From Acidimicrobiia bacterium (lineage in GTDB: Bacteria; Actinomycetota; Acidimicrobiia; ATN3; PSLF01), in the NCBI GenBank assembly GCA_040289475.1, contig PSLF01000012.1, positions 1-60,509 of the forward strand: a stretch of DNA of 60,509 bases. Direction: 5' to 3'. Numbering within the stretch: position 1 is the first letter of the stretch; every line of letters begins with the position of its first letter. Positions 819 through 22,738 of this stretch are shown here, piece by piece. The notes under the pieces were generated by a model that ran no database searches, was not told the DNA's origin, and worked only from the letters and a program-made list of their open reading frames with translations. The position numbers were made by a program, and so were the translations under genes.

Positions 819-2075
819 TTACCTCCAGTATGAGGGTTGCGCTCTAGCATGGGGGGAACTAGAAGCGACAAAACGCTCCCCGCCGTAAGGAACGACGAGA
901 CCCGCTCGACTCAAACCGGCTAGCGCGTCTATCACCGATGCCGGGGTCATTTCACACCTGGCTGATAACTCGGCCAAGGTTCTAGGCTCCCCGTCCCCTA
1001 AGAGGAATAAAATTTCCGATTGCGCCTGCGTCAGATTCAAAGACTCAATTCGTTGGTCATTTGCCCTACAGCTGGCCGGCACGTTTTGACATGTCGCATT
1101 ATCGAGGAGTTCGGCGTGCGAAGGTAGCGCTAGCGCAGAAAGGCATTCCACTACATCTTCGGCAGAGCGCACAGGTGCGGCGCCCTCCCAGATCAACTGG
1201 TTGGTTCCCGAGGCGGCCGGACTGAGCACCGAACCTGGAACCGCCATCACCTCTCTTCCGATCTCGTTGGCAGCGGCTACGGTTGAAAGTGCACCACCCG
1301 ACAAAAAGGATTCCACTACGACCACTCCAACGGAGAATCCGGCTATCGTTCGATTTCGCTCGGGAAATCGCCACTTTTCCGGCGGGGCCCCTAGCCCGTA
1401 CTGACTGACCACAACACCTTTATTCAGGAGAGAGCGATATAACTTGCTATTGCACTTGGGATAGACAACGTCTATTCCGCACCCGAGCACGGCAACTGAC
1501 AGAGCTGTACCAGCGTGGGACTCGACCTCCAAGGCTCCCAAGTGAGCCGCCGCGTCGATCCCTCTCGCCATCCCCGACACCACTGTGATCCCGCGCTCTG
1601 CGAGCCCTAGTCCTAGCCGAAAGGCAACCTCGAGGCCGGTCACGCTAGCCCGCCTCGTACCCACGACAGCCACGCAGCCGACGTTGGGAAGCTCACCGTT
1701 GCCTGCGAGAACTAAAAACGGTGGAGCAACCGGAGAAGATGCGAGGAATTCAGGGTAGGCTGGTCCTCCCTGGAAGATCACCCTCCCCCCAAGCTCGGCC
1801 AATGCTGTTCTCGCGCGTTCATAGTCATAGCCCGCCAGGTAGCTGGCGACGCGCTTAGCCTGAGATGGAGTGACTCGGTCCCGCCTAGTTGAAAGGGCCA
1901 CTGCTTCCCCCGCCGCCAAAGCATCGACCGCGCCGGCAGGACCCTTGAAGAATTCGACGGCCCGTCGAAGACGGGCGGTGCCTAGGTGTGGGCATGACAT
2001 AAGCGCTAGCGCGCACAGTTCGATATCTGTGTTTACCGACTCCTTTGAAGGGGGCGAAAAAATGCGAGCCTCCAC
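819..2075 (-). CDS. dprA: DNA processing protein DprA (Smf family)
   Basis: 418 residues, starting at a GTG behind a GGGAG SD. The central Rossmann domain is clear: VAVVGTRRASVTGLEVA, VVSGMARGIDAAAH, then SVAVLGCGIDVVYP and the PERNRTIAG segment. The C-terminal ~65 residues form the DprA winged-helix domain (LTQAQSEILFLLGDGEPRTL). The family binds incoming single-stranded DNA and loads RecA during transformation, and is also kept in bacteria not known to be competent. It begins 13 bp after the yifB stop and runs towards the recombinase, so yifB-dprA-xer is probably one operon. No key residues appear to be missing. Confidence 0.95.
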   Translation of the reverse strand: MEARIFSPPSKESVNTDIELCALALMSCPHLGTARLRRAVEFFKGPAGAVDALAAGEAVALSTRRDRVTPSQAKRVASYLAGYDYERARTALAELGGRVIFQGGPAYPEFLASSPVAPPFLVLAGNGELPNVGCVAVVGTRRASVTGLEVAFRLGLGLAERGITVVSGMARGIDAAAHLGALEVESHAGTALSVAVLGCGIDVVYPKCNSKLYRSLLNKGVVVSQYGLGAPPEKWRFPERNRTIAGFSVGVVVVESFLSGGALSTVAAANEIGREVMAVPGSVLSPAASGTNQLIWEGAAPVRSAEDVVECLSALALPSHAELLDNATCQNVPASCRANDQRIESLNLTQAQSEILFLLGDGEPRTLAELSARCEMTPASVIDALAGLSRAGLVVPYGGERFVASSSPHARAQPSYWR

Positions 2076-2088
2076 CGTCTAGCTCCCG

Positions 2089-3648
2089 CTAGCTTTCCGA
2101 AAGCTCAGCCGGCAGGACGAACATGCTCAATGCCTCTTCTACGTGGCAGAGCTCGGGCTCTTCTGCACCGTCCAATGCTGAGAGTGCCCATGACAGTCGC
2201 ATCATCTTGTGAATGCGCCTTGCTGAAACTCTCTGCAGAACCGCCCACCTCTCCAAGAGGCTCCGGGCGGTTGCCCGAAGCGGCAACAATTCTCGTAAGG
2301 CCCTAGCTGGAAACCACGCCAACGGAGTCGTGGAGCCGGTGCGGGCTGCTAGCAGTGCACGGGCCTCTTCGATCATGGAAGCCATCGAACGGCGATCAAA
2401 CTCCGATTTAGACTGCAGCAGCTCAGCGGGATCAGGCGGATGCATGTGTAACGCTAAGTCGAAGCGGTCAATAAAAGGGCCGCTTATCTTGCGCAGAAAT
2501 CTCACTCTTTCCTGCTCACTACAGCGACATGACTGATCCCCGTTTCTCTGAGACCGCCTAGAGGCCCCACAAGGACAGGTGTTTGTCGCAGCAACTACCA
2601 TTGGGCGTGCCGGGTACTCAACCGTCATCTTCGCCCTGGCGATTCGAACGACTCCGTCTTCGAGCGGTTGTCTGAGTGCGTCTAGGGCCGGAGATGAAAA
2701 CAGCGCCAGCTCATCCAGGAATAGCACCCCATGATGTGCCAAGCTCACTTCCCCGGGTCTAGGCACTCCACCTCCACCTCCAACGAGAGCAGCCGGAGAC
2801 ACCGTGTGATGCGGCCCTCTAAAGGGCGGCCTTTTTGGGAGCTGGTTATCGAATCGATCGGATACTAGGCTATGTATCATGCGCACTTGCAGAGAAGCGT
2901 TGGTGTCTAAGTCCGGGAGAAGCGCGCAGAATCCTCTTCCGATGAGTGTCTTGCCAGATCCCGGCGGCCCCCACAAGAAGATGTTCAGCATTCCCGCTGC
3001 CGCAGCAGCGATTCCCCGTCCTAGAGGGGCCTCGACCATGACCGACGCGATCTCGGCTTCGCCGACTCGCTCTTCCCCCGATGGCTTAGGCAGAGGTTCG
3101 CGGTTATCCGAAGGCATGAGAAGCGAAGGCCTAGACTCGCCCTTCATCAAAGAAACGAGGCCGGAGAGGTCTTCCACGGGAACAGCCTCTACCTCCTCCA
3201 CTAGAGCCACCTCCCAGGAGTTGTGAACGGGAAAGACAAGCTTCGATCTCAACTGCCGACAGTAAGCTGCAATCGGCAAGATGTCTCGACATCGCTTGAG
3301 ACCGCCGTCGAGCCCCAGCTCCCCAACCACCACAGCACCCTCTAAAAAAGTGGGTGGAGCAATTCCCGAGGCAACCGCTATTGCTGCTGCGATCGGTAAA
3401 TCGAAAGCCGCTCCCGCCTTGGGAAGATCCGCGGGAGCGAGGTTTATAACGATCTTTCCCCGTGGCCATTGAAGTCCAGAAGACTCAAAGGCAGCTTTGA
3501 CCCGATCCCGGGCCTCTCGAACGGCTGTATCGGCCAAGCCGACAACTGAGGCCTGTGGGAGTCCTCTACCTATGTGAACCTCTACGGTAGCAGGGTACGC
3601 CTGGATGCCAAGGACCGTAACAGTCTGCACCTTGGCAAGAGTTGACAT
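2089..3648 (-). CDS. comM: YifB/ComM family Mg-chelatase-like AAA+ ATPase
   Basis: 519 residues. The ATG at 3648 follows a strong purine-rich SD (GAGGGGGG). The N-terminal domain of about 180 residues has the YifB/ComM S5-like/Lon-like fold (VEVHIGRGLPQASVVGLAD, INLAPADLPKAGAAFDLP). It is followed by an AAA+ module with Walker A GPPGSGKTLIGR, Walker B GVLFLDELALF, a CPCG zinc-like motif (TNTCPCG) and sensor/arginine regions. The C-terminal Mg_chelatase_C domain ends the protein. ComM is a hexameric helicase that promotes branch migration during natural transformation. The pairing with dprA just downstream fits a shared role in handling taken-up DNA, though both are also widespread in non-competent actinobacteria. 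Confidence 0.93.
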   Translation of the reverse strand: MSTLAKVQTVTVLGIQAYPATVEVHIGRGLPQASVVGLADTAVREARDRVKAAFESSGLQWPRGKIVINLAPADLPKAGAAFDLPIAAAIAVASGIAPPTFLEGAVVVGELGLDGGLKRCRDILPIAAYCRQLRSKLVFPVHNSWEVALVEEVEAVPVEDLSGLVSLMKGESRPSLLMPSDNREPLPKPSGEERVGEAEIASVMVEAPLGRGIAAAAAGMLNIFLWGPPGSGKTLIGRGFCALLPDLDTNASLQVRMIHSLVSDRFDNQLPKRPPFRGPHHTVSPAALVGGGGGVPRPGEVSLAHHGVLFLDELALFSSPALDALRQPLEDGVVRIARAKMTVEYPARPMVVAATNTCPCGASRRSQRNGDQSCRCSEQERVRFLRKISGPFIDRFDLALHMHPPDPAELLQSKSEFDRRSMASMIEEARALLAARTGSTTPLAWFPARALRELLPLRATARSLLERWAVLQRVSARRIHKMMRLSWALSALDGAEEPELCHVEEALSMFVLPAELSES

Positions 3649-13132: not shown

Positions 13133-16100
13133 TCAGCTGTAACTCAAGGACTCGGATACTTTATAGGAGACGACTTTTGATACACCTTCGCTTTGCATCG
13201 ATACCCCATATAGACAATCCGCAATCTCTACCGTTCGCTTCTGGTGGGTGACTATCACAACTTGGCCGTGATCACGGAAGTCCCGTAGGAGTCTCAAAAA
13301 CCTCTCTAGATTAGTGTCGTCAAGTGCAGCCTCTACCTCGTCGAGAATGTAAAAAGGTGAGGGACGCGCCCTGTAGATCGAGAACAAAAAAGCAAGAGCA
13401 GCGAGAGATCGCTCTCCACCAGAAAGAAGGGACAACCGCTTGACCGCTTTCCCAGCAGGCTTTGCTTCCACCTCGACACCCGAGGTGAGTGGATCCGAAG
13501 GATTTTGAAGGTATAGTCGTCCAGAACCCCCTTCGAAAAGCATCTGGAAGGTCGTCTCGAAAGAGCGGGCAATGTCGTCGAAGGCATTGCGGAATAGCAG
13601 TTCAATCTGGCTATCGACGGCTGCGATGACCTTTTGCAGCTCCCGCTTGGACTCCTCCAAGTCTTGCGCCTGAGCAGCGTAAAACTCCAACCGAGAAGAG
13701 GCCTCCTCGTAATCCTTTAACGCGAGCTGATTTATGGGACCCATCTTCTCGAGATCTCTCTCTACTGCGTTCAACTGGGCCTGGACCGTTTGATCGTCGA
13801 GCTCATCTAGCTCCGGTGGGAAAATTGGTGCCCCTGTTCCAGCCTGCAAATAATCGCGACTTGATGGGGCCTCTTCGCCGGTAACGCTCTTGTACTCCGA
13901 TTCAACCTGTTCTAGTACTGTCGCCGTGCGTACCGCTTCAATCTCGGCCGCCTGGAGGGATTCTGCTGCCGCCGCCAAGCTCTGAGACGTCTCCTCGAGC
14001 CGCTTTCGCAAAACTCCGAGACGGCGTGAGCATGTGTCGTCCACTGGCCTCACAATGTCACACACCGAATAGGCGTCTTTCTCTAGTGCAGATATTGACG
14101 CCAACAAGCCGCCCGCGGCCTCTTCAATAGCCTGTGCCTTCCTCGCTAAATAAGATGCTAAATGCCTTTTTCTGTCTTCGGCAGCGAGCCGTTGTTGCTC
14201 TGATTGAAGCTTCTTGGCGATCTGCTCACGCCTGGATGCCAGCATCGAATGGCGCTCCTCAGCCCCTGTCAATGCCTTCTCGAGTTCGCGTCGCTTCTCC
14301 CTTGACGACGCCAGGGCTTCTTCTACCTCCGACAGCCGGGGTTCGTCGGCGCCGGCCAGGCTGTATGCGTGGCTCTCCTGGGATGGCGCCCCTGCCTTAA
14401 GTTGTTCTAAGAGCTTTTCGATCTCCTCTAACTTCTGGCGGTCCTTTTGAATGCGGGCGACAAGGCTCAATTCAGCCTTTTTGAGCGTAGCCCGCTCCGC
14501 GTCGACCCTCGAGAGTTCGGGATCGACACGCCCAAGCTCGTTTGCTGCCGCGGTAAGAGCGGCATCGCACTCGGCGAGAGCGGATCGGGTCGCTTCAAGA
14601 TCTCGCTCCAAGGAGTGCAGATCTTTGCGCCGGCGAGCTAAATTCGCAGTGACAGCCCGCAGACGGTTCTCCGCTGCCCTGGCCTTTGTAGCTACATCCG
14701 TGAGAAGCGCGAGTTGAGAGAAGGGACCTGAAGCCTGGGCTCCCACCCTATAGACGCCAGCGCCGGCGATACCGCCCTGGGGGGTCACAAAGGTCAACTC
14801 TGGATATCTTTCGGCTAACTCCACAGCTGACTTCCAGTTGGCGACCAGATATGACCTAGAGAGTAAGATCTGAACCAGGGCGTATATTCGCTCGTCGCCC
14901 CCGCGAACCTTTACAGCCGTGACAAGAGGGCGGGCCTCTGAGGAAGGGGGAACCTGGGTAACTGGCCCAATTCGGAATCGCACCTTGATTCCCCTGTCGT
15001 TCTCGACTGATTGCGCGTCCAGAAGCCAGGCCGCTTCTTCTCCGTCTTGAAGCACCGCTGCAGCAGAAAGAACACCTGAGGTTCCGTTCACAACAACAGC
15101 TCGGCTAAAGTCACCGAGGGCGGCCTCAACAGCAACCTCGCTCCCCCGCTCTACCTCCAGCAAATCCCAGAAAGTACCTATGAAGCCATCAGGAGATGCT
15201 TCCGCTATCCGAGACGGGCCTTCAGTCGACGAATACTGTGCAGCCAGCTCTTTGAGGGCTTCTAGTCTCCCATTCCAAATAGACAGCTCTGCCTGAGCCT
15301 CCTCCCGCTCCCGCTCGAGTTCCTCGATCTCTCTTTGGGCAACCTCTCTAAGATCCACGAGGCGAGACACCTCTTCACTGAGAGGCTGGGAGCGAGCGTC
15401 GAGACGCCGGATCTCTTCGTCGAGCCGGTTTCGCTCTTCGACCAATTCCAGCCGCCTTTGGTCAAGTGCCCGTGCCCTTTCTACCACTTGAGAAACCTCG
15501 ATTTCCGCCCGGGCTATGGAAGACTCTAGAGAGGACCGCTCTCCGGCGGCCTCAGCAGCCCGTAACGCCGCTTCGCTACCAGCAGCCATCTCCATCCTCA
15601 ATGACTCGGCCTCGGCAGCTAGCCGGCGCTCTTCCGTGATAGCTGCTTCTAACTCCTCTCTAAGAACCGGAAGAACTGCCTCGATTTCCGCGAGTTTCTC
15701 GTCCAGCTGATCTTTTTCAGCACCAAGAAGGTCGAGGTGCTGGGCGGCAGACCGCAGGGAGACGGCTTCGAAGAATTTCTTCTTCTCCCGGGCTATGTCA
15801 CCCAAAGATCCGCATGCCTGGCGAAGGTCGCGCAGTTTTGATAACGCCTCGTCGCCACTGCGGCGCACCGAGGAGACTTTGTTTCGGTCGGACGCTACAG
15901 ACTCTATCTCTTCGCTCAAGGAAGATGAGAGCGACTCCAACCTTTCGACTTCCTTGCGCACCGCTTCTAGCCGCTCTTGAGCCTGCCTGCGTGCTTCTCT
16001 TGCTGCAGCCAGTCTTCTCCAGGCGAGAAGCTTACGGAGCAGAGCCGCCTCTGCGCTCACCTCCCTATAACGCTGTACGGCAGCGGCTTGCCGCTGGAGA

Positions 16101-16711
16101 GGACGTATTTGACGTTTGATTTCTCCCATGATGTCGTAGATCCGAGATAAGTTTTCCTCCGTAGTAGCGAGGCGTCTCGAGGCACGCTCTTTTCTTTTCT
16201 TGTACTTGAGGATCCCTGCTGCCTCTTCGATCATTGACCTGCGATCCTCGGGGGTTGCCGTCAACACGGCGTCGAGTTGCCCCTGGCCCACAATCGTGTG
16301 TAATTGGCGGCCCACACCAGTGTCCGACAGCAGCTCCTGGATATCCACGAGCCTGCAGGAAGCTCCATTGATCGCGTACTCGCTCTCCCCGTTTCTGTAC
16401 AGAGTTCGCGAGATGGCAACCTCACTAAAGTCGACGGGAAGCGTCCCGTCGGAGTTGTCGATAGTAATCGTGACTTTAGCCCGCCCCAAAGGCTTGCGGA
16501 CTCCAGAGCCGGCGAAGATGACCTCTTGCATGGAGCCCGTTCTCAGTGTCGAGATTGCCTGGGTACCCATAGCCCAGCAGATGGCATCGACGATGTTGGA
16601 CTTGCCCGACCCGTTCGGTCCCACGATGACGGTTATGCCGGGCTCGAACTCGATCGTGACAGGGTCGGCGAAAGACTTGAAGCCCTTTATTTCCAAGGAC
16701 TTAAGGAGCAA
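13133..16711 (-). CDS. smc: Chromosome segregation ATPase SMC
   Basis: 1192 residues, a full-length bacterial SMC. The N-terminal head starts at once with LKSLEIKGFKSFADPV and Walker A GPNGSGKSNIVDAICWAMG. Two long coiled coils flank a hinge (IGTFWDLLEVERGSEVAVEA to about residue 650, with TPQGGIAGAGVYRVG). The C-terminal head has the signature LSLLSGGERSLAALAFLF and Walker B FYILDEVEAALDD. It compacts and aligns sister chromosomes together with ScpA/ScpB, which are not in this window. The smc-ftsY-ffh order is usual in actinobacteria. Confidence 0.97.
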   Translation of the reverse strand: MLLKSLEIKGFKSFADPVTIEFEPGITVIVGPNGSGKSNIVDAICWAMGTQAISTLRTGSMQEVIFAGSGVRKPLGRAKVTITIDNSDGTLPVDFSEVAISRTLYRNGESEYAINGASCRLVDIQELLSDTGVGRQLHTIVGQGQLDAVLTATPEDRRSMIEEAAGILKYKKRKERASRRLATTEENLSRIYDIMGEIKRQIRPLQRQAAAVQRYREVSAEAALLRKLLAWRRLAAAREARRQAQERLEAVRKEVERLESLSSSLSEEIESVASDRNKVSSVRRSGDEALSKLRDLRQACGSLGDIAREKKKFFEAVSLRSAAQHLDLLGAEKDQLDEKLAEIEAVLPVLREELEAAITEERRLAAEAESLRMEMAAGSEAALRAAEAAGERSSLESSIARAEIEVSQVVERARALDQRRLELVEERNRLDEEIRRLDARSQPLSEEVSRLVDLREVAQREIEELEREREEAQAELSIWNGRLEALKELAAQYSSTEGPSRIAEASPDGFIGTFWDLLEVERGSEVAVEAALGDFSRAVVVNGTSGVLSAAAVLQDGEEAAWLLDAQSVENDRGIKVRFRIGPVTQVPPSSEARPLVTAVKVRGGDERIYALVQILLSRSYLVANWKSAVELAERYPELTFVTPQGGIAGAGVYRVGAQASGPFSQLALLTDVATKARAAENRLRAVTANLARRRKDLHSLERDLEATRSALAECDAALTAAANELGRVDPELSRVDAERATLKKAELSLVARIQKDRQKLEEIEKLLEQLKAGAPSQESHAYSLAGADEPRLSEVEEALASSREKRRELEKALTGAEERHSMLASRREQIAKKLQSEQQRLAAEDRKRHLASYLARKAQAIEEAAGGLLASISALEKDAYSVCDIVRPVDDTCSRRLGVLRKRLEETSQSLAAAAESLQAAEIEAVRTATVLEQVESEYKSVTGEEAPSSRDYLQAGTGAPIFPPELDELDDQTVQAQLNAVERDLEKMGPINQLALKDYEEASSRLEFYAAQAQDLEESKRELQKVIAAVDSQIELLFRNAFDDIARSFETTFQMLFEGGSGRLYLQNPSDPLTSGVEVEAKPAGKAVKRLSLLSGGERSLAALAFLFSIYRARPSPFYILDEVEAALDDTNLERFLRLLRDFRDHGQVVIVTHQKRTVEIADCLYGVSMQSEGVSKVVSYKVSESLSYS

Positions 16712-16829: not shown

Positions 16830-17918
16830 TCACCGAGAAAGCAAACCTCCAGTAGGGCCTGGAGCTACTCCACGTCCCGTGGGCGACGGAGACGGCGAGG
16901 CGCTGGGTAGCGGAGATGGCCCCGCTCTCGGAGGAGGAGTAATTGGTTTTGGTTGTCCAGGAAGAGGCTTTCCAGCAACCGATGCGAACGAGTCTATTAG
17001 AGCGTTTACGTCGTCGGCTCTTTCATCTTGAGGTATGTGCCCAGCCCTGTCCAAGACCACAAGACGTGCCCCTTTTATGAGGGATGCAAGCTCCTCGCCG
17101 TTTCGAAGAGGAATCAGTCGGTCATATTTTCCCCAGAGAATAAGCGTAGGAATAGATATCTGCTGGAGCTCGGACCTGTTGAGCTGGGGAGCTGTTGTTC
17201 TAATCATTCGCCACAACATTTCTTCGGCTCTTTCGACATCCAATGGATCCCTATAAGCTGCGATCATCGCATCGTTCACCAGGCTGCGGTCGTAGAAGGC
17301 CTGACTCAGGCCCGCTCGCACAATTCTTTTCGAGGTAGCGAGCCGCAACAGCATCGTCTGCAGGGGCTGCGGAACGGGAGGAACCTGGAAACGACGCTCC
17401 ATTGGAAGTCCCGCAGAATCAATGAGCACGAGTCCCGCTATATCGTTGGGACGCTGAAGCGCAATTCTCATAGCGACCTCGCCCCCCAACGAGTGGCCCA
17501 CAAGGATTGGGCGGCGCACGCCGAGAATGTCGAGAAACGTCGACACGTGGGTGGCGTATCCCCTCGGGCTGTACTCTGCTGCGGGGTCCCTTGAGGTATA
17601 GCCAAATCCGCGCACGTCTAGGGAGATAACGGTGTACTTGTGTGCTAGATCTTCCAAGTTCTCTCGCCAAGAGTAGGTAGAGCCGCCGAATCCGTGAATA
17701 AAGACAATTACGGTATCGCCGTCTCCTTGCTTTATGTAGTGAGTGCGAACCCCCGAACCGCTAACGAAGGAGCCCTCTACTTTCTTCACCTCGATCGCCC
17801 GTTCTGGGTCGAGCTGTGCTTTGGCTGTAACTGCGTTGAAGAGCACAGCGAAGGTTAGTAGACCCGCTAAAGACGGTGTTACGACCTTGAAGAAAAACGC
17901 CGTTACAGCGCGTTTCAT
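16830..17918 (-). CDS. Exported or membrane-anchored alpha/beta hydrolase
   Basis: 362 residues. A basic N-terminus and a hydrophobic segment (residues ~12-33, ending in VTAKAQ) look like a signal peptide or anchor. The alpha/beta-hydrolase core follows: oxyanion region IVFIHGFGGSTYSWRENL, nucleophile elbow VGHSLGGEVAMR, acid in ILWGKYDRLIPL and His in LDRAGHIPQDERADD. The triad is complete. Substrate unknown; the fold fits an esterase or C-C hydrolase. The last ~45 residues are a Pro/Ser/Gly tail (SPSPTGRG), unusual for this fold and suggestive of a cell-wall or surface tether. Its ATG overlaps the acylphosphatase stop by ATGA, so it is coupled to mutM-acyP rather than to smc, which lies 118 bp downstream. 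Confidence 0.85.
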   Translation of the reverse strand: MKRAVTAFFFKVVTPSLAGLLTFAVLFNAVTAKAQLDPERAIEVKKVEGSFVSGSGVRTHYIKQGDGDTVIVFIHGFGGSTYSWRENLEDLAHKYTVISLDVRGFGYTSRDPAAEYSPRGYATHVSTFLDILGVRRPILVGHSLGGEVAMRIALQRPNDIAGLVLIDSAGLPMERRFQVPPVPQPLQTMLLRLATSKRIVRAGLSQAFYDRSLVNDAMIAAYRDPLDVERAEEMLWRMIRTTAPQLNRSELQQISIPTLILWGKYDRLIPLRNGEELASLIKGARLVVLDRAGHIPQDERADDVNALIDSFASVAGKPLPGQPKPITPPPRAGPSPLPSASPSPSPTGRGVAPGPTGGLLSR

Positions 17919-18199
17919 CCTAGAATCCTGAAATCAGTGTGACCATAGACCTCGGCGTCCTCTACTAAGATCCTGTCGACACGGGCAGCCGGCGGGCCCT
18001 CGTGACAGAAGTCGATCACCTTGCCCACCGGCTCCGGAGATCCTTCGAGATGAGCCAAGACCGCTCCGTCTGGCAGATTCCGGACCCACCCATATACCCC
18101 GAGTCGTGAGGCGAGCGATCGAATACTGTCCCTAAAGAATACGCCCTGAACTCGCCCTTCTATCCTGATCCGTCTTGCTATCTTTGTCTCCTGGCTCAC
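17915..18199 (-). CDS. acyP: Acylphosphatase
   Basis: 94 residues from a GTG at 18199 whose GTGA overlaps the mutM stop. The family motif is complete: RRIRIEGRVQGVFFRDSIRS with the phosphate-binding Arg, YGWVRNLPDGAVLAHLEGS with the catalytic Asn, and a C-terminal TDFRIL. It hydrolyses acyl phosphates such as carbamoyl phosphate or acetyl phosphate. A longer frame running back into mutM adds no homologous residues. Stop and start overlap the hydrolase downstream (ATGA). The placement between mutM and smc is common in actinobacteria. Confidence 0.93.
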   Translation of the reverse strand: MSQETKIARRIRIEGRVQGVFFRDSIRSLASRLGVYGWVRNLPDGAVLAHLEGSPEPVGKVIDFCHEGPPAARVDRILVEDAEVYGHTDFRILG

Positions 18200-19032
18200 G
18201 ACTGGCACTGTGGGCAGTACCAAGTGTGCCGTCCACCGAACTTGGCTCTCTCGATAGGCGTTCGGCATCGAGGGCAGGGCTTTCCCGTCCGTTGATAGAC
18301 CTGAGCGACCGTCTGGAAACTGCCTGGCTCTCCAAAGAGATCTACGTACTGCTCGTCCTCGGCAGTGGTGCCACGGTGCTTGATTGCTTCGTGTAGAACC
18401 TCTTGGATAGCTCTGGAGAGACGTCTGACCTCTTGGGAAGTTAGCGAGTCCGAGCGCCTGTCATACCGAAGTCCGGCCTCGAATAGAATCTCGTCAGAGT
18501 AAATGTTTCCGATCCCGGAGATGAACTCCTGGTCCATTAGTAGGGACTTCAACTTTGCCTTTCTCTCCGAGATGCGCCTGCCGAAGTCGATCCATGAGAT
18601 CGGATCTTCGATCGGATCAAATCCTAGATGTTGAAGCTCGGGAATGTTGTCCAACTCGTCCAGAGAGGTCACGAACATCTCTCCGAATTGACGAGGGTCG
18701 ACAAAGCAGAGCTTGCCACCTTGAGTAAAAGTAATGACAACCTGAGTATGGGGAAGGGTCGCGGATTTTTTCGACTTTTCCCGCAACAACCTCCCCGACA
18801 TTCCTAGATGAATAACTAGAGCACTCTCGTTGTCGAGTCTGAGGACCAGGTACTTACCCCGACGGCCTACTGAGATGATTTTTCTTCCCACTAAAGCAGT
18901 TTTAAAGCGCGTTTTGTTCGGATGGCGCCTAATGGTCCGCATTCTGTAGACCTCGACGTCAGCGATTTTTCGACCAACGACCTCGCGCTCTAGGTCTCTA
19001 CGGATCACTTCTACTTCAGGAAGTTCGGGCAT
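18196..19032 (-). CDS. mutM: Formamidopyrimidine-DNA glycosylase (Fpg/MutM)
   Basis: 278 residues from ATG 19032. This start is required because the enzyme uses the N-terminal Pro exposed by Met removal (PELPEVEVIRRDLE; Pro1, Glu2). The central domain carries the lesion-recognition and beta-hairpin regions (LVIHLGMSGRLL, FVDPRQFGEM), then the H2TH motif region (QEFISGIGNIYSDEILFEAG). A C-terminal zinc finger follows (CPRCRTPIERAKFGG and YCPQC). It excises 8-oxoguanine and formamidopyrimidines. The first bases overlap the end of rnc by 17 bp. No active-site residue is missing. Confidence 0.95.
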   Translation of the reverse strand: MPELPEVEVIRRDLEREVVGRKIADVEVYRMRTIRRHPNKTRFKTALVGRKIISVGRRGKYLVLRLDNESALVIHLGMSGRLLREKSKKSATLPHTQVVITFTQGGKLCFVDPRQFGEMFVTSLDELDNIPELQHLGFDPIEDPISWIDFGRRISERKAKLKSLLMDQEFISGIGNIYSDEILFEAGLRYDRRSDSLTSQEVRRLSRAIQEVLHEAIKHRGTTAEDEQYVDLFGEPGSFQTVAQVYQRTGKPCPRCRTPIERAKFGGRHTWYCPQCQS

Positions 19033-19759
19033 CTTGTTGCTGTCCCTCTGATCCAAGCGACTCGAGAGCCGCACGTGCCGCTTCTTGCTCAGCTTGTTTT
19101 TTGGAGCGCCCTTCCCCCGAACCAGTGCCGGACCTGCCTACCCAAACCGTAGCGTAAAACTTCTTGGCGTGGTCTGGCCCCTCCTCTTCGATCGAGTACT
19201 TCGGCAGTCCCCAGCCATTTGCCAAAGCCAGCTCCTGAAGACGTGTCTTGTAATCGCTGCCTCCAGGACCCTCGGCAGCCTCACGGATTCGCTGACCCAG
19301 CAGTCTCATAACTAGTGCGTTAGCCGGCTTCCAGCCGCCATCCAAATACACCGCACCTATGAGGGCCTCCATCGCATCCGCCAAAATTGACGGCTTTTCT
19401 CGTCCGCCAGAGGCCTCTTCGCCCTTGCCCAAAAGGACGTGTTCTCCCAATCCGAGCTCGTCTGCGACCTCCGCTAGCGACGAGGAGGACACAACAGATG
19501 CGCGCACCTTTGCGAGCATCCCCTCGGTAAGTGCGTCGTATGTCTTGTAAATGTGAACAGTTACAGCTAGCTGAAGGACCGCGTCTCCTAGAAACTCGAG
19601 ACGTTCATTGGAGGGAATGGGAGAGTCCTTTTGCTGGCTGGCTTCGGAAGCAAAAGAGCGATGGGACAGTGCCTGCCTGAGAAGCTCCCTTCGGGCGAAT
19701 CTGTACCCGATCGCCTCTTCGATCTCATGGTCAGAAGAGTCGGGCTCTGGAGCTGTCAC
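19016..19759 (-). CDS. rnc: Ribonuclease III
   Basis: 247 residues. The endonuclease domain has the signature ERLEFLGDAVLQLAV with its acidic metal ligands, then the second acidic cluster in ADAMEALIGAVYLDGG. The C-terminal dsRNA-binding domain reads DYKTRLQELALANGWGLP to SKKQAEQEAARAALESLG. It processes rRNA precursors and double-stranded RNA. The start is GTG, with GTGA overlapping the stop of the carrier-like gene, so those two are coupled. The plsX-acp-rnc-mutM-smc order is the usual one. Confidence 0.95.
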   Translation of the reverse strand: MTAPEPDSSDHEIEEAIGYRFARRELLRQALSHRSFASEASQQKDSPIPSNERLEFLGDAVLQLAVTVHIYKTYDALTEGMLAKVRASVVSSSSLAEVADELGLGEHVLLGKGEEASGGREKPSILADAMEALIGAVYLDGGWKPANALVMRLLGQRIREAAEGPGGSDYKTRLQELALANGWGLPKYSIEEEGPDHAKKFYATVWVGRSGTGSGEGRSKKQAEQEAARAALESLGSEGQQQDARTS

Positions 19760-20064
19760 GACTCTCCTTTCGATCTATCCAGACCAGCAGCGACAGCCAG
19801 CAACAATACAAAGTCCCCAACTGTTTCGCACTCTGCTAGCTCGGAGCCGTCAAGATGAGCAAGGCCTCTCTCCCCGAGATCTTCTGCAACCATCTCGGCG
19901 AGATCCAACAAGTCGACGTCGTCGATTTCCAAAGCATCGAGACGAGTATGGAGATCGATAAATCCCCCGGCAGAAAGGCCAGCGCTCTCGAAGGCTACGA
20001 GTACCGCCTCTACGAGCGACTCGTACGAGCGGGCTGGCCCATGTGAGAGCGTCTCAGATGGCAT
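19756..20064 (-). CDS. Acyl-carrier-protein-like protein lacking the phosphopantetheine serine
   Basis: 102 residues at the exact acpP position between plsX and rnc, overlapping both (11 bp with plsX, 4 bp with rnc). The helical pattern and the segment DLHTRLDALEIDDVDLLDLA follow ACP, where the family has D-S-L-(D/E) at the start of helix 2. Here the codons read Asp48-Asp49-Val50-Asp51 (GAC GAC GTC GAC), so the Ser that carries 4'-phosphopantetheine is Asp. The protein therefore cannot be a normal holo-carrier. It may be a regulatory, PlsX/FabD-binding or degenerate paralog, with the working AcpP encoded elsewhere. I base the family call on position and pattern; the sequence is otherwise divergent. 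The SD is weak. Confidence 0.72.
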   Translation of the reverse strand: MPSETLSHGPARSYESLVEAVLVAFESAGLSAGGFIDLHTRLDALEIDDVDLLDLAEMVAEDLGERGLAHLDGSELAECETVGDFVLLLAVAAGLDRSKGES

Positions 20065-21217
20065 CTGCAGCTGCAGTCCAGGGGGCTACTTCGGCGATTC
20101 TCTGCTGAATTCCAGCTGCTCGCTCACTGCTTGCGAAGAGTATGGCCCTGCATATCGACTCCGAGTTAGAAGAACCGTGCGCTATGACTGTCAAGCCATT
20201 CACTCCAAGAAGGCATGCGCCTCCCCTTCCGTCAGCGTTAACCTTCTGACGTAACTCCAGCAACGCTCCTACGGCCTGGGCTTGAGTCTCCCCCGTAGTC
20301 TTAGAGGCAATTGCGGATACAATCTCTTGAATGAGGCTTCGAGCTATTCCCTCGGAGAGTTTTAGCACGACATTTCCGGTGAACCCGTCGGTTACTACAA
20401 CGTCCGCTTTTCCATGGGGAAGATCATAACCCTCGACGTTCCCTACGAACTCGAAGGGGCACTCACTGAGCGACGCTACAGACCGCAATATATTGAACGC
20501 GGTCTTATACAAGGCCGACCCTTTGGATTCTTCCTCACCTATGTTGAGAAGACCTACTCGAGGCGGGGAGTGTCCCAAGGCTGCTTCAGCAAAAACAGAT
20601 CCCATAACGGCGAAATCTAAAAACTGCCCCGGCTTGCAATCGGCATTCGCTCCGGAGTCGATAAGGATGATCGGGTGAGCGGGAAACGGTACAACAGTCG
20701 CTAATGCAGGCCGCGAAATTCCCTTTATCCGACCGAATTTAAACACGGCGCCCGCAACAGCAGCTCCGGTAGATCCAGCCGATACGACGGCTGATGCTTT
20801 GCCCTCGGCCACCAGAGAGCACGCAACAGCTATCGAAGATCGGGGTTTCGAACGCACGGCTCGCGCGGGTTCCTCTCCCATTCCCACAGTATCTGGGGCG
20901 TCCTCGATGCGTAGAGATCCCCTGTTGGTTTTGGCCCAAGCCTCAGAGTTTGCTGGCTCCGTAGAGCCCCCCGAAATCTCCGACGCGCCCGAAGGATAAG
21001 AAATCATGGAATCCAAGTCTAGATCGAGCTTTTTAGCGCAGGATTCGAGATGACGACGTATCTCGCCCTCCGGCCCAGTGATAACCACGTGCGCGCCGCT
21101 GGCCACGGCCTTCAAGGCTCCTTCTACTGTGGCCTCCGGGGCGTGGTCACCACCCATCCCATCTAGCGCAACCGGAGACCGCGCCCTTTCACCCCCGACC
21201 GAGTTGGCTCCAGACAT
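20054..21217 (-). CDS. plsX: Phosphate acyltransferase PlsX
   Basis: 387 residues. It converts acyl-ACP and phosphate to acyl-phosphate, the acyl donor for PlsY in phospholipid synthesis. The family hallmarks are present: VALDGMGGDHAPEATVEGAL, a glycine-rich SAGSTGAAVAGAVFKFGRI, ILIDSGANADCKPGQFLDFA, GLLNIGEEESKG and DVVVTDGFTGNVVLKLSEG. It starts 17 bp downstream of rpmF and overlaps the carrier-like gene. A ~12-residue N-terminal leader precedes the family start. Confidence 0.95.
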   Translation of the reverse strand: MSGANSVGGERARSPVALDGMGGDHAPEATVEGALKAVASGAHVVITGPEGEIRRHLESCAKKLDLDLDSMISYPSGASEISGGSTEPANSEAWAKTNRGSLRIEDAPDTVGMGEEPARAVRSKPRSSIAVACSLVAEGKASAVVSAGSTGAAVAGAVFKFGRIKGISRPALATVVPFPAHPIILIDSGANADCKPGQFLDFAVMGSVFAEAALGHSPPRVGLLNIGEEESKGSALYKTAFNILRSVASLSECPFEFVGNVEGYDLPHGKADVVVTDGFTGNVVLKLSEGIARSLIQEIVSAIASKTTGETQAQAVGALLELRQKVNADGRGGACLLGVNGLTVIAHGSSNSESICRAILFASSERAAGIQQRIAEVAPWTAAADAI

Positions 21218-22258: not shown

Positions 22259-22738
22259 CTAAGAAAATTTCGCTTTGAGTCGTTCGGCGACTCCGCGCGG
22301 CACAAGGGATGACACATCTCCACCGAACCGTGCGATTTCTTTTACCAATGATGAAGAGAGGTACGACGTGACCGGGCTCGCTGCCATAAAGAATGTCTCG
22401 ATCCCAGATAACTTGTTGTTCATCTGAGCCATCTGTATCTCGTAGTCGAAATCAGAAACCGCTCTCAGCCCTTTGACAATTACATCTACACCTATCGATT
22501 TGGCGAAGTCTACTAGTAGGCCATCGAAGCTTGAAATCTCGACATTCGGTAAGTGGCCTACGGCTTCTTCGAGAAGGCCCATCCTTTCTTCGGTGTTGAA
22601 CAGAGGTGCTTTGGATGGATTTGTAACGACCGCTACTACCAAGCTGTCGAAGCGTGCCGAAGCCCTTTCGATAATGTCGACGTGCCCGATCGTGACAGGA
22701 TCGAACGACCCCGGACAGAGCGCTTTGGTCATCGTCAA
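22259..22738 (-). CDS. coaD: Pantetheine-phosphate adenylyltransferase
   Basis: 159 residues. It transfers AMP to 4'-phosphopantetheine in CoA synthesis. The nucleotidyltransferase motifs are present: CPGSFDPVTIGHVDIIERA (TxGH with the catalytic His), VKGLRAVSDFDYEIQMAQMN and the ISSxxVKE-equivalent SYLSSSLVKEIARFGGD. The ATG overlaps the rsmD stop (ATGA). The rsmD-coaD pair is almost universal. Confidence 0.96.
   Translation of the reverse strand: MTMTKALCPGSFDPVTIGHVDIIERASARFDSLVVAVVTNPSKAPLFNTEERMGLLEEAVGHLPNVEISSFDGLLVDFAKSIGVDVIVKGLRAVSDFDYEIQMAQMNNKLSGIETFFMAASPVTSYLSSSLVKEIARFGGDVSSLVPRGVAERLKAKFS

Follow-up and report, generated by a model that had tools for sequence, protein, structure and literature searches.

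The gene order plsX-acpP-rnc is common among Gram-positive bacteria, and the functional reason for the pairing of acyl carrier protein (ACP) with rnc, which adjoin in many of these bacteria, is not known. ACPs moonlighting as protein subunits are already known, and carrier domains without the phosphopantetheine Ser are known in general terms. In Escherichia coli, MukB is stimulated alike by apo- and holo-AcpP (PMC8602292), and binding of IscS by ACP needs Ser36 (PMC13343975). Mitochondrial ACP is a subunit of the Fe-S biogenesis complex, with acyl-phosphopantetheine required for full activity (PMC4991935). Enterococcus faecalis has an auxiliary ACP, AcpB, which PlsX loads preferentially from acyl-phosphate; AcpB retains its Ser and presumably functions as an acyl-AcpB ligand for FabT (PMC6509188).

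Our analysis of the window, a 60,509-nt stretch of DNA from an Acidimicrobiia bacterium, reveals a Ser-less ACP-like protein (ACPL) encoded at this same position. The ACPL gene (19756-20064, minus strand; 102 codons, 102 aa, ATG start) lies between plsX (20054-21217, minus strand; acyl-ACP:phosphate acyltransferase, 387 aa) and rnc (19016-19759, minus strand; ribonuclease III, 247 aa, GTG start). As the original prediction had stated, it overlaps both neighbors: its start overlaps the end of plsX by 11 nt (20054-20064, minus strand), and its stop overlaps the start of rnc by 4 nt (GTGA; 19756-19759, minus strand). The identities of the flanking genes are secure, with NCBIfam matches to TIGR00182 for PlsX (6.9e-85) and TIGR02191 for RNase III (3.8e-73) and with agreement from Pfam (PF02504 for PlsX), and the catalytic motif of the window RNase III, NERLEFLGDAVL, is intact. 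ACPL is strongly acidic (pI 4.05; 22 Asp/Glu and 5 Lys/Arg) and is a separate ORF, unfused to RNase III. In-frame homologues across Acidimicrobiia rule out a spurious overlapping ORF. The same gene run contains, as named by eye, a coaD gene (phosphopantetheine adenylyltransferase; 22259-22738, minus strand), an acylphosphatase-like gene (17915-18268, minus strand) with a substrate class that includes the PlsX product, and, downstream of rnc on the same strand, an SMC-type ORF (13133-16711).

The predicted structure of window ACPL, obtained with AlphaFold from an alignment of 45 locus homologues (pLDDT 80.7, pTM 0.71), has the four-helix ACP fold, with the helices in ACP order. Nearly every one of the top 50 PDB matches in Foldseek is an ACP or an ACP domain, with probabilities of ~1 and E-values of only 0.01-0.3. 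The sole Pfam match is PF00550, below cut-off (15.7 versus 20.8 bits), and this cut-off is passed by other Ser-less homologues (for example, 43.2 bits in G122 and 34.9 bits in G019). The fold and the Foldseek matches rule out placement of the protein outside the ACP superfamily. Helix II of the model begins at residue 49, where Ser36 sits in AcpP. Residues 47-50 read I-D-D-V, and alignment with homologues shows that Asp49 (codon GAC, 19918-19920, minus strand), the first residue of helix II, replaces the Ser of the D-S-L motif of functional AcpP; no Ser or Thr is present within two residues of position 49 (I-D-D-V-D). The two structural claims of the original prediction, membership of the ACP superfamily and Asp-Asp-Val in place of D-S-L, are thus borne out, the former by the predicted fold. 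Read from the sequence, phosphopantetheinylation of window ACPL at the usual Ser is impossible.

The window genome (G000; 1.97 Mb, 24 contigs, 97% complete) contains one PF00550 match over cut-off, an AcpP with D-S-L encoded in a fabG-acpP-fabF cluster (L001; G000:C3:87152-87349). With this canonical AcpP, the FabF encoded by the adjoining gene, and AcpS, which was also found, ordinary ACP chemistry is independent of window ACPL, and the possibility that ACPL is the sole ACP of the genome is ruled out. The original prediction had suggested both a second acpP with D-S-L, which is the gene found here, and a loss of catalysis after that gene arose. The D-S-L acpP of the fab cluster fits the latter suggestion, but most Ser-bearing genomes also have, among the matches listed, a second, weaker match consistent with another ACP, and Ser loss as a simple sequel to gain of a second acpP therefore holds only partly. 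In four f28 genomes (G086, G094, G176, and G189; loci L155, L178, L193, and L171), the Ser-bearing ACP at the rnc locus is the sole discrete small ACP, and neither a PlsX match nor a FabF match over cut-off was found. In two f28 members, a phosphopantetheinyl transferase is encoded next to 3000-aa ketosynthase frames, suggestive of type I fatty acid synthase; together with the lack of FabF over cut-off, this indicates that the f28 ACP may not serve type II fatty acid synthesis either. In G023 (f12, 95% complete), the Ser-less protein is the only PF00550 match, the canonical acpP being either missing or in a gap.

A search with window ACPL as query returned 11 significant matches in 60 relatives, all 11 flanked by plsX and rnc and none a canonical AcpP. 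A family profile gives strong matches across Acidimicrobiia, and the named homologues place the group in that class. An Acidimicrobiia-type locus is also present in three records (L046, L090, and L107) that bear the names Bifidobacterium breve, Acidobacteria bacterium, and Ferrithrix thermotolerans; the Bifidobacterium label of L046, which matches family f22, is probably wrong.

The homologue alignment reveals four invariant residues outside the Ser site: P2, E4, T5, and R66. The first three lie in the N-terminal motif, MPSETLSHG in the window (20038-20064, minus strand) and MPAETH in the family, which is predicted to be disordered (mean pLDDT ~50 for residues 1-10 of window ACPL). Conservation across the family is highest in the MPAETH tail (alignment columns 1-9), though some families lack this tail, and, as judged from alignment and model, it resembles a short linear docking motif. 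R66 lies in the G-E-R (residues 64-66; 19867-19875, minus strand) of a second family motif, GER[TS]VGF, located between helices II and III and not present in the canonical AcpP of the window genome. Window ACPL has both the MP[AS]ET tail and the GER motif of the rnc-locus family; it retains P2, E4, T5, L45, D48, GER, and V82 and is otherwise strongly divergent, with 22-38% identity to its homologues.

To survey the Ser site, we examined the plsX-rnc interval at 138 loci. The ACPL gene is absent at 39 of these, and in the 99 proteins at the locus the Ser column contains Ser in 75 (including one, L190 of G118, with R-S-T in place of D-S-L), Asp or Glu in 18 (including the window protein), and another residue in 6; homologues without Ser have D/E or A/T/K at the site. 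The 18 acidic proteins are spread over six families, and every one of the 12 f12 genomes included in a tree of Rnc and PlsX (LG+G4, short search, SH-aLRT support) has the acid state. On this tree, there are at least six changes between Ser and acid and at least seven losses of Ser of any kind; families f32 and f35 branch at open forks, and the safe range is therefore four to six Ser-to-acid changes. Ser is encoded mainly by TCG or TCC and acid by GAC, and each Ser-to-Asp replacement thus requires at least two nucleotide changes, although single-step replacements were available. Position 49 therefore seems to favor a negative charge or a residue suited to a helix N-terminus; the acid there may act as a charge mimic of phosphate or simply cap the helix. 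The original prediction had also held that relatives with D-S-L at this locus would point to a sequencing error. Most relatives are indeed Ser-bearing, but an error is not implied, because other relatives share the Ser loss; indeed, the need for at least two base changes and the 18 Asp/Glu proteins rule out an error at Asp49.

In the Ser-less f12 trio G083/G110/G169, dN/dS (Nei-Gojobori) is 0.04-0.09, comparable to values for Ser-bearing pairs (0-0.25), and the frame is intact in 12 of 12 f12 genomes; the trio indicates that the Ser-less protein is maintained in at least one clade. Values are higher for the f17 pair (0.35) and for the more distant f12 pair G106/G110 (0.37). In G001, the sole order-mate of the window genome among those compared, the ACPL gene has been lost and plsX and rnc are still adjacent. 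Thus, the claim that selection has kept an apo-only protein stands for f12 relatives and extends to the window gene by homology only, with its function argued from its open frame and retained motif residues. At loci that have lost the gene, plsX and rnc stay close, with ~20-150 nt between alignments; loss in many families, including that of G001, indicates that the gene is dispensable.

Genome-wide, family matches lie within 1.5 kb of rnc at 91 of 91 loci and within 1.5 kb of plsX at 83 of 91. The eight loci away from plsX include those of the four f28 genomes, in which a PlsX match is absent, and of two f4 genomes (G003 and G156), in which plsX is ~6-9 kb off and ACPL is still beside rnc. ACPL is likewise kept in G010 and G020, in which no PlsX match was found. 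The invariable adjacency to rnc may be operon inertia.

In five genomes from two families, including G010 and G020, Ser-less ACPL forms an in-frame fusion with RNase III, with the ACP-like domain N-terminal. In particular, fusions are present in f12 at L039 (G141; 1501-2538, plus strand) and L266 (G214; 1501-2535, minus strand; TTG start, GAGDL at the Ser site), and in f6 at L128 (G015; 1310-2368, minus strand), L129 (G010; 1414-2508, minus strand), and L132 (G020; 1162-2220, plus strand). The RNase III catalytic motifs are intact, the linkers comprise roughly 15-35 residues, and only one RNase III match is present per fusion genome; the linkers in G141 and G020 contain no ATG, GTG, or TTG, indicating that these two genomes make RNase III solely in fused form. 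In a structure model of the fusion, the domains fold well and linker residues 100-109 are disordered. All five fusions are Ser-less, and none of the 75 Ser-bearing proteins is fused (4/24 versus 0/75, p 0.003, in a test that ignores phylogeny). Counts of neighbor fusions are 4/99 for ACPL-Rnc (G214 having been found later), 0/89 for PlsX-ACPL, 0/37 for PlsX-Rnc, and 1/126 for Rnc-Fpg. The excess of ACPL-Rnc fusions over these controls is suggestive and corresponds to about two independent events; five fusions from about two events, set against one Rnc-Fpg fusion, would also be compatible with near-neutral fusion of neighbors through loss of a stop. The Rnc-Fpg case, a possible fusion with RNase III and Fpg/MutM in one open frame, is at L137 (G081, f27) and is the only one at 126 loci. 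In a 246-genome sample of the phylum, no clean ACPL-RNase III fusion was present, among the matches listed, in other classes of Actinomycetota. The proposal that PlsX is the likely partner, part of the original prediction, is weakened and not supported by these comparisons: adjacency is stricter to rnc, the gene is kept without PlsX, and its neighbor fusions are all to RNase III.

We propose, with a probability of about 0.5, that ACPL is an ACP paralogue that has been de-functionalized repeatedly and retained, in apo form only, as an acidic module for protein binding, with RNase III the most likely partner. According to this proposal, ACPL is an ACP-fold paralogue that sits where acpP would be expected. 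It is still Ser-bearing in most of the Acidimicrobiia with the gene, and fatty acid synthesis commonly uses its own AcpP encoded elsewhere. Replacement of Ser by Asp or Glu in the window lineage and about five others would make the protein permanently apo, and the job retained would be to bind a protein, not to carry acyl groups. Together with the conserved MPAETH tail and the GER loop, the acidic bundle of ACPL would most likely dock on RNase III and adjust RNase III folding, dimerization, localization, or RNA access. RNase III is the favored partner because of the translational coupling in the window and the fusions in relatives; for unfused species, including that of the window, we infer both the physical contact and the effect on the enzyme. 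More tentatively, it is possible that ACPL is a dedicated cofactor-less subunit of RNase III in which the ancestral Ser coupled acyl or lipid status to double-stranded RNA processing, which about six lineages then locked in a charge-mimicking apo state and two fused as an obligate N-terminal domain.

The main competing account is that ACPL is a drifting relic of redundancy, deprived of its cofactor site, with its frame held for now only by plsX-rnc translational coupling. The canonical AcpP supplied from the fab cluster, the whole-gene loss at 39 of 138 loci (G001 included), the relaxed dN/dS of the f17 pair, and the high divergence of the window protein all accord with drift. We nevertheless regard drift as rather unlikely, since it does not account for the low dN/dS of the f12 trio and the intact f12 frames, the invariance of P2, E4, T5, and R66 away from the Ser site, or the favoring of D/E over one-step replacements, and since coupling as the reason for an intact frame sits poorly both with loci where plsX and rnc stay close after loss of the gene and with genomes that keep ACPL without PlsX. 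That same persistence, in G010, G020, and four f28 genomes, counts against a regulator or decoy that would occupy, as apo protein, the ACP site of PlsX (or of PlsY, PlsC, or AcpS) and throttle acyl-phosphate formation as a cofactor-less counterpart of AcpB. Such a decoy would fit the overlap with plsX, the plsX neighbor of 83 of 91 homologues, the retained acidic surface of helix II, and the precedent of AcpB (PMC6509188); however, ACPL stays with rnc when plsX is kilobases away (G003 and G156), PlsX-ACPL fusions number 0/89, and AcpB acts through an acylated Ser, and we consider this account doubtful.

Improbable, in our assessment, is another partner, with apo ACPL activating the SMC complex (gene at 13133-16711) or binding SpoT or IscS. 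The equivalence of apo- and holo-AcpP in MukB activation (PMC8602292) and the SMC-type ORF, named by eye, downstream on the same strand speak for SMC, against which no ACPL-smc fusion was seen; E. coli IscS binding requires Ser36 (PMC13343975). It is highly improbable that ACPL is a carrier after all, with another residue or a non-covalent ligand replacing the phosphopantetheine Ser: the ACP fold is kept and AcpS is encoded in the genome, but window ACPL offers no nearby Ser or Thr, and the remaining Ser-less homologues have D/E or A/T/K at the site.

Literature searches on a Ser-less ACP at rnc, or on a link between ACP and RNase III, found nothing on point, and the papers searched describe no case in which an ACP at the rnc locus has recurrently lost its Ser and is naturally fused to RNase III; the novelty would be greater if the proposed contact with RNase III is true. 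A Ser-less, rnc-linked, and sometimes fused ACP provides a clean route to ask what the ACP fold does in RNA processing apart from carrier chemistry, and Ser-less ACPLs are natural cofactor-dead ACPs for the study of ACP protein-protein functions.

ACPL shares with canonical AcpP (PF00550) the four-helix fold, the acidic surface, and the Asp that precedes the attachment site where helix II begins, and differs in having no attachment Ser, in having the MPAETH tail and a GERTVGF insert between helices II and III, and, for the window protein, in scoring below the PF00550 cut-off. Like AcpB, it is a second, divergent ACP in a genome with its main ACP (AcpA in the case of AcpB) encoded in a fab operon; AcpB, however, has a functional tie to PlsX and is Ser-bearing and acylated, whereas window ACPL has no Ser and no acyl chain at the usual site. 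Mitochondrial ACP offers the parallel of an ACP that is a stable component of unrelated machinery, but acyl-phosphopantetheine is needed there for full activity. The AcpP that activates MukB is similar in that its ACP fold acts as a protein partner independently of phosphopantetheine; in that case, one AcpP works in fatty acid synthesis as well and its partner is an SMC protein, whereas ACPL is a dedicated Ser-less paralogue tied to rnc.
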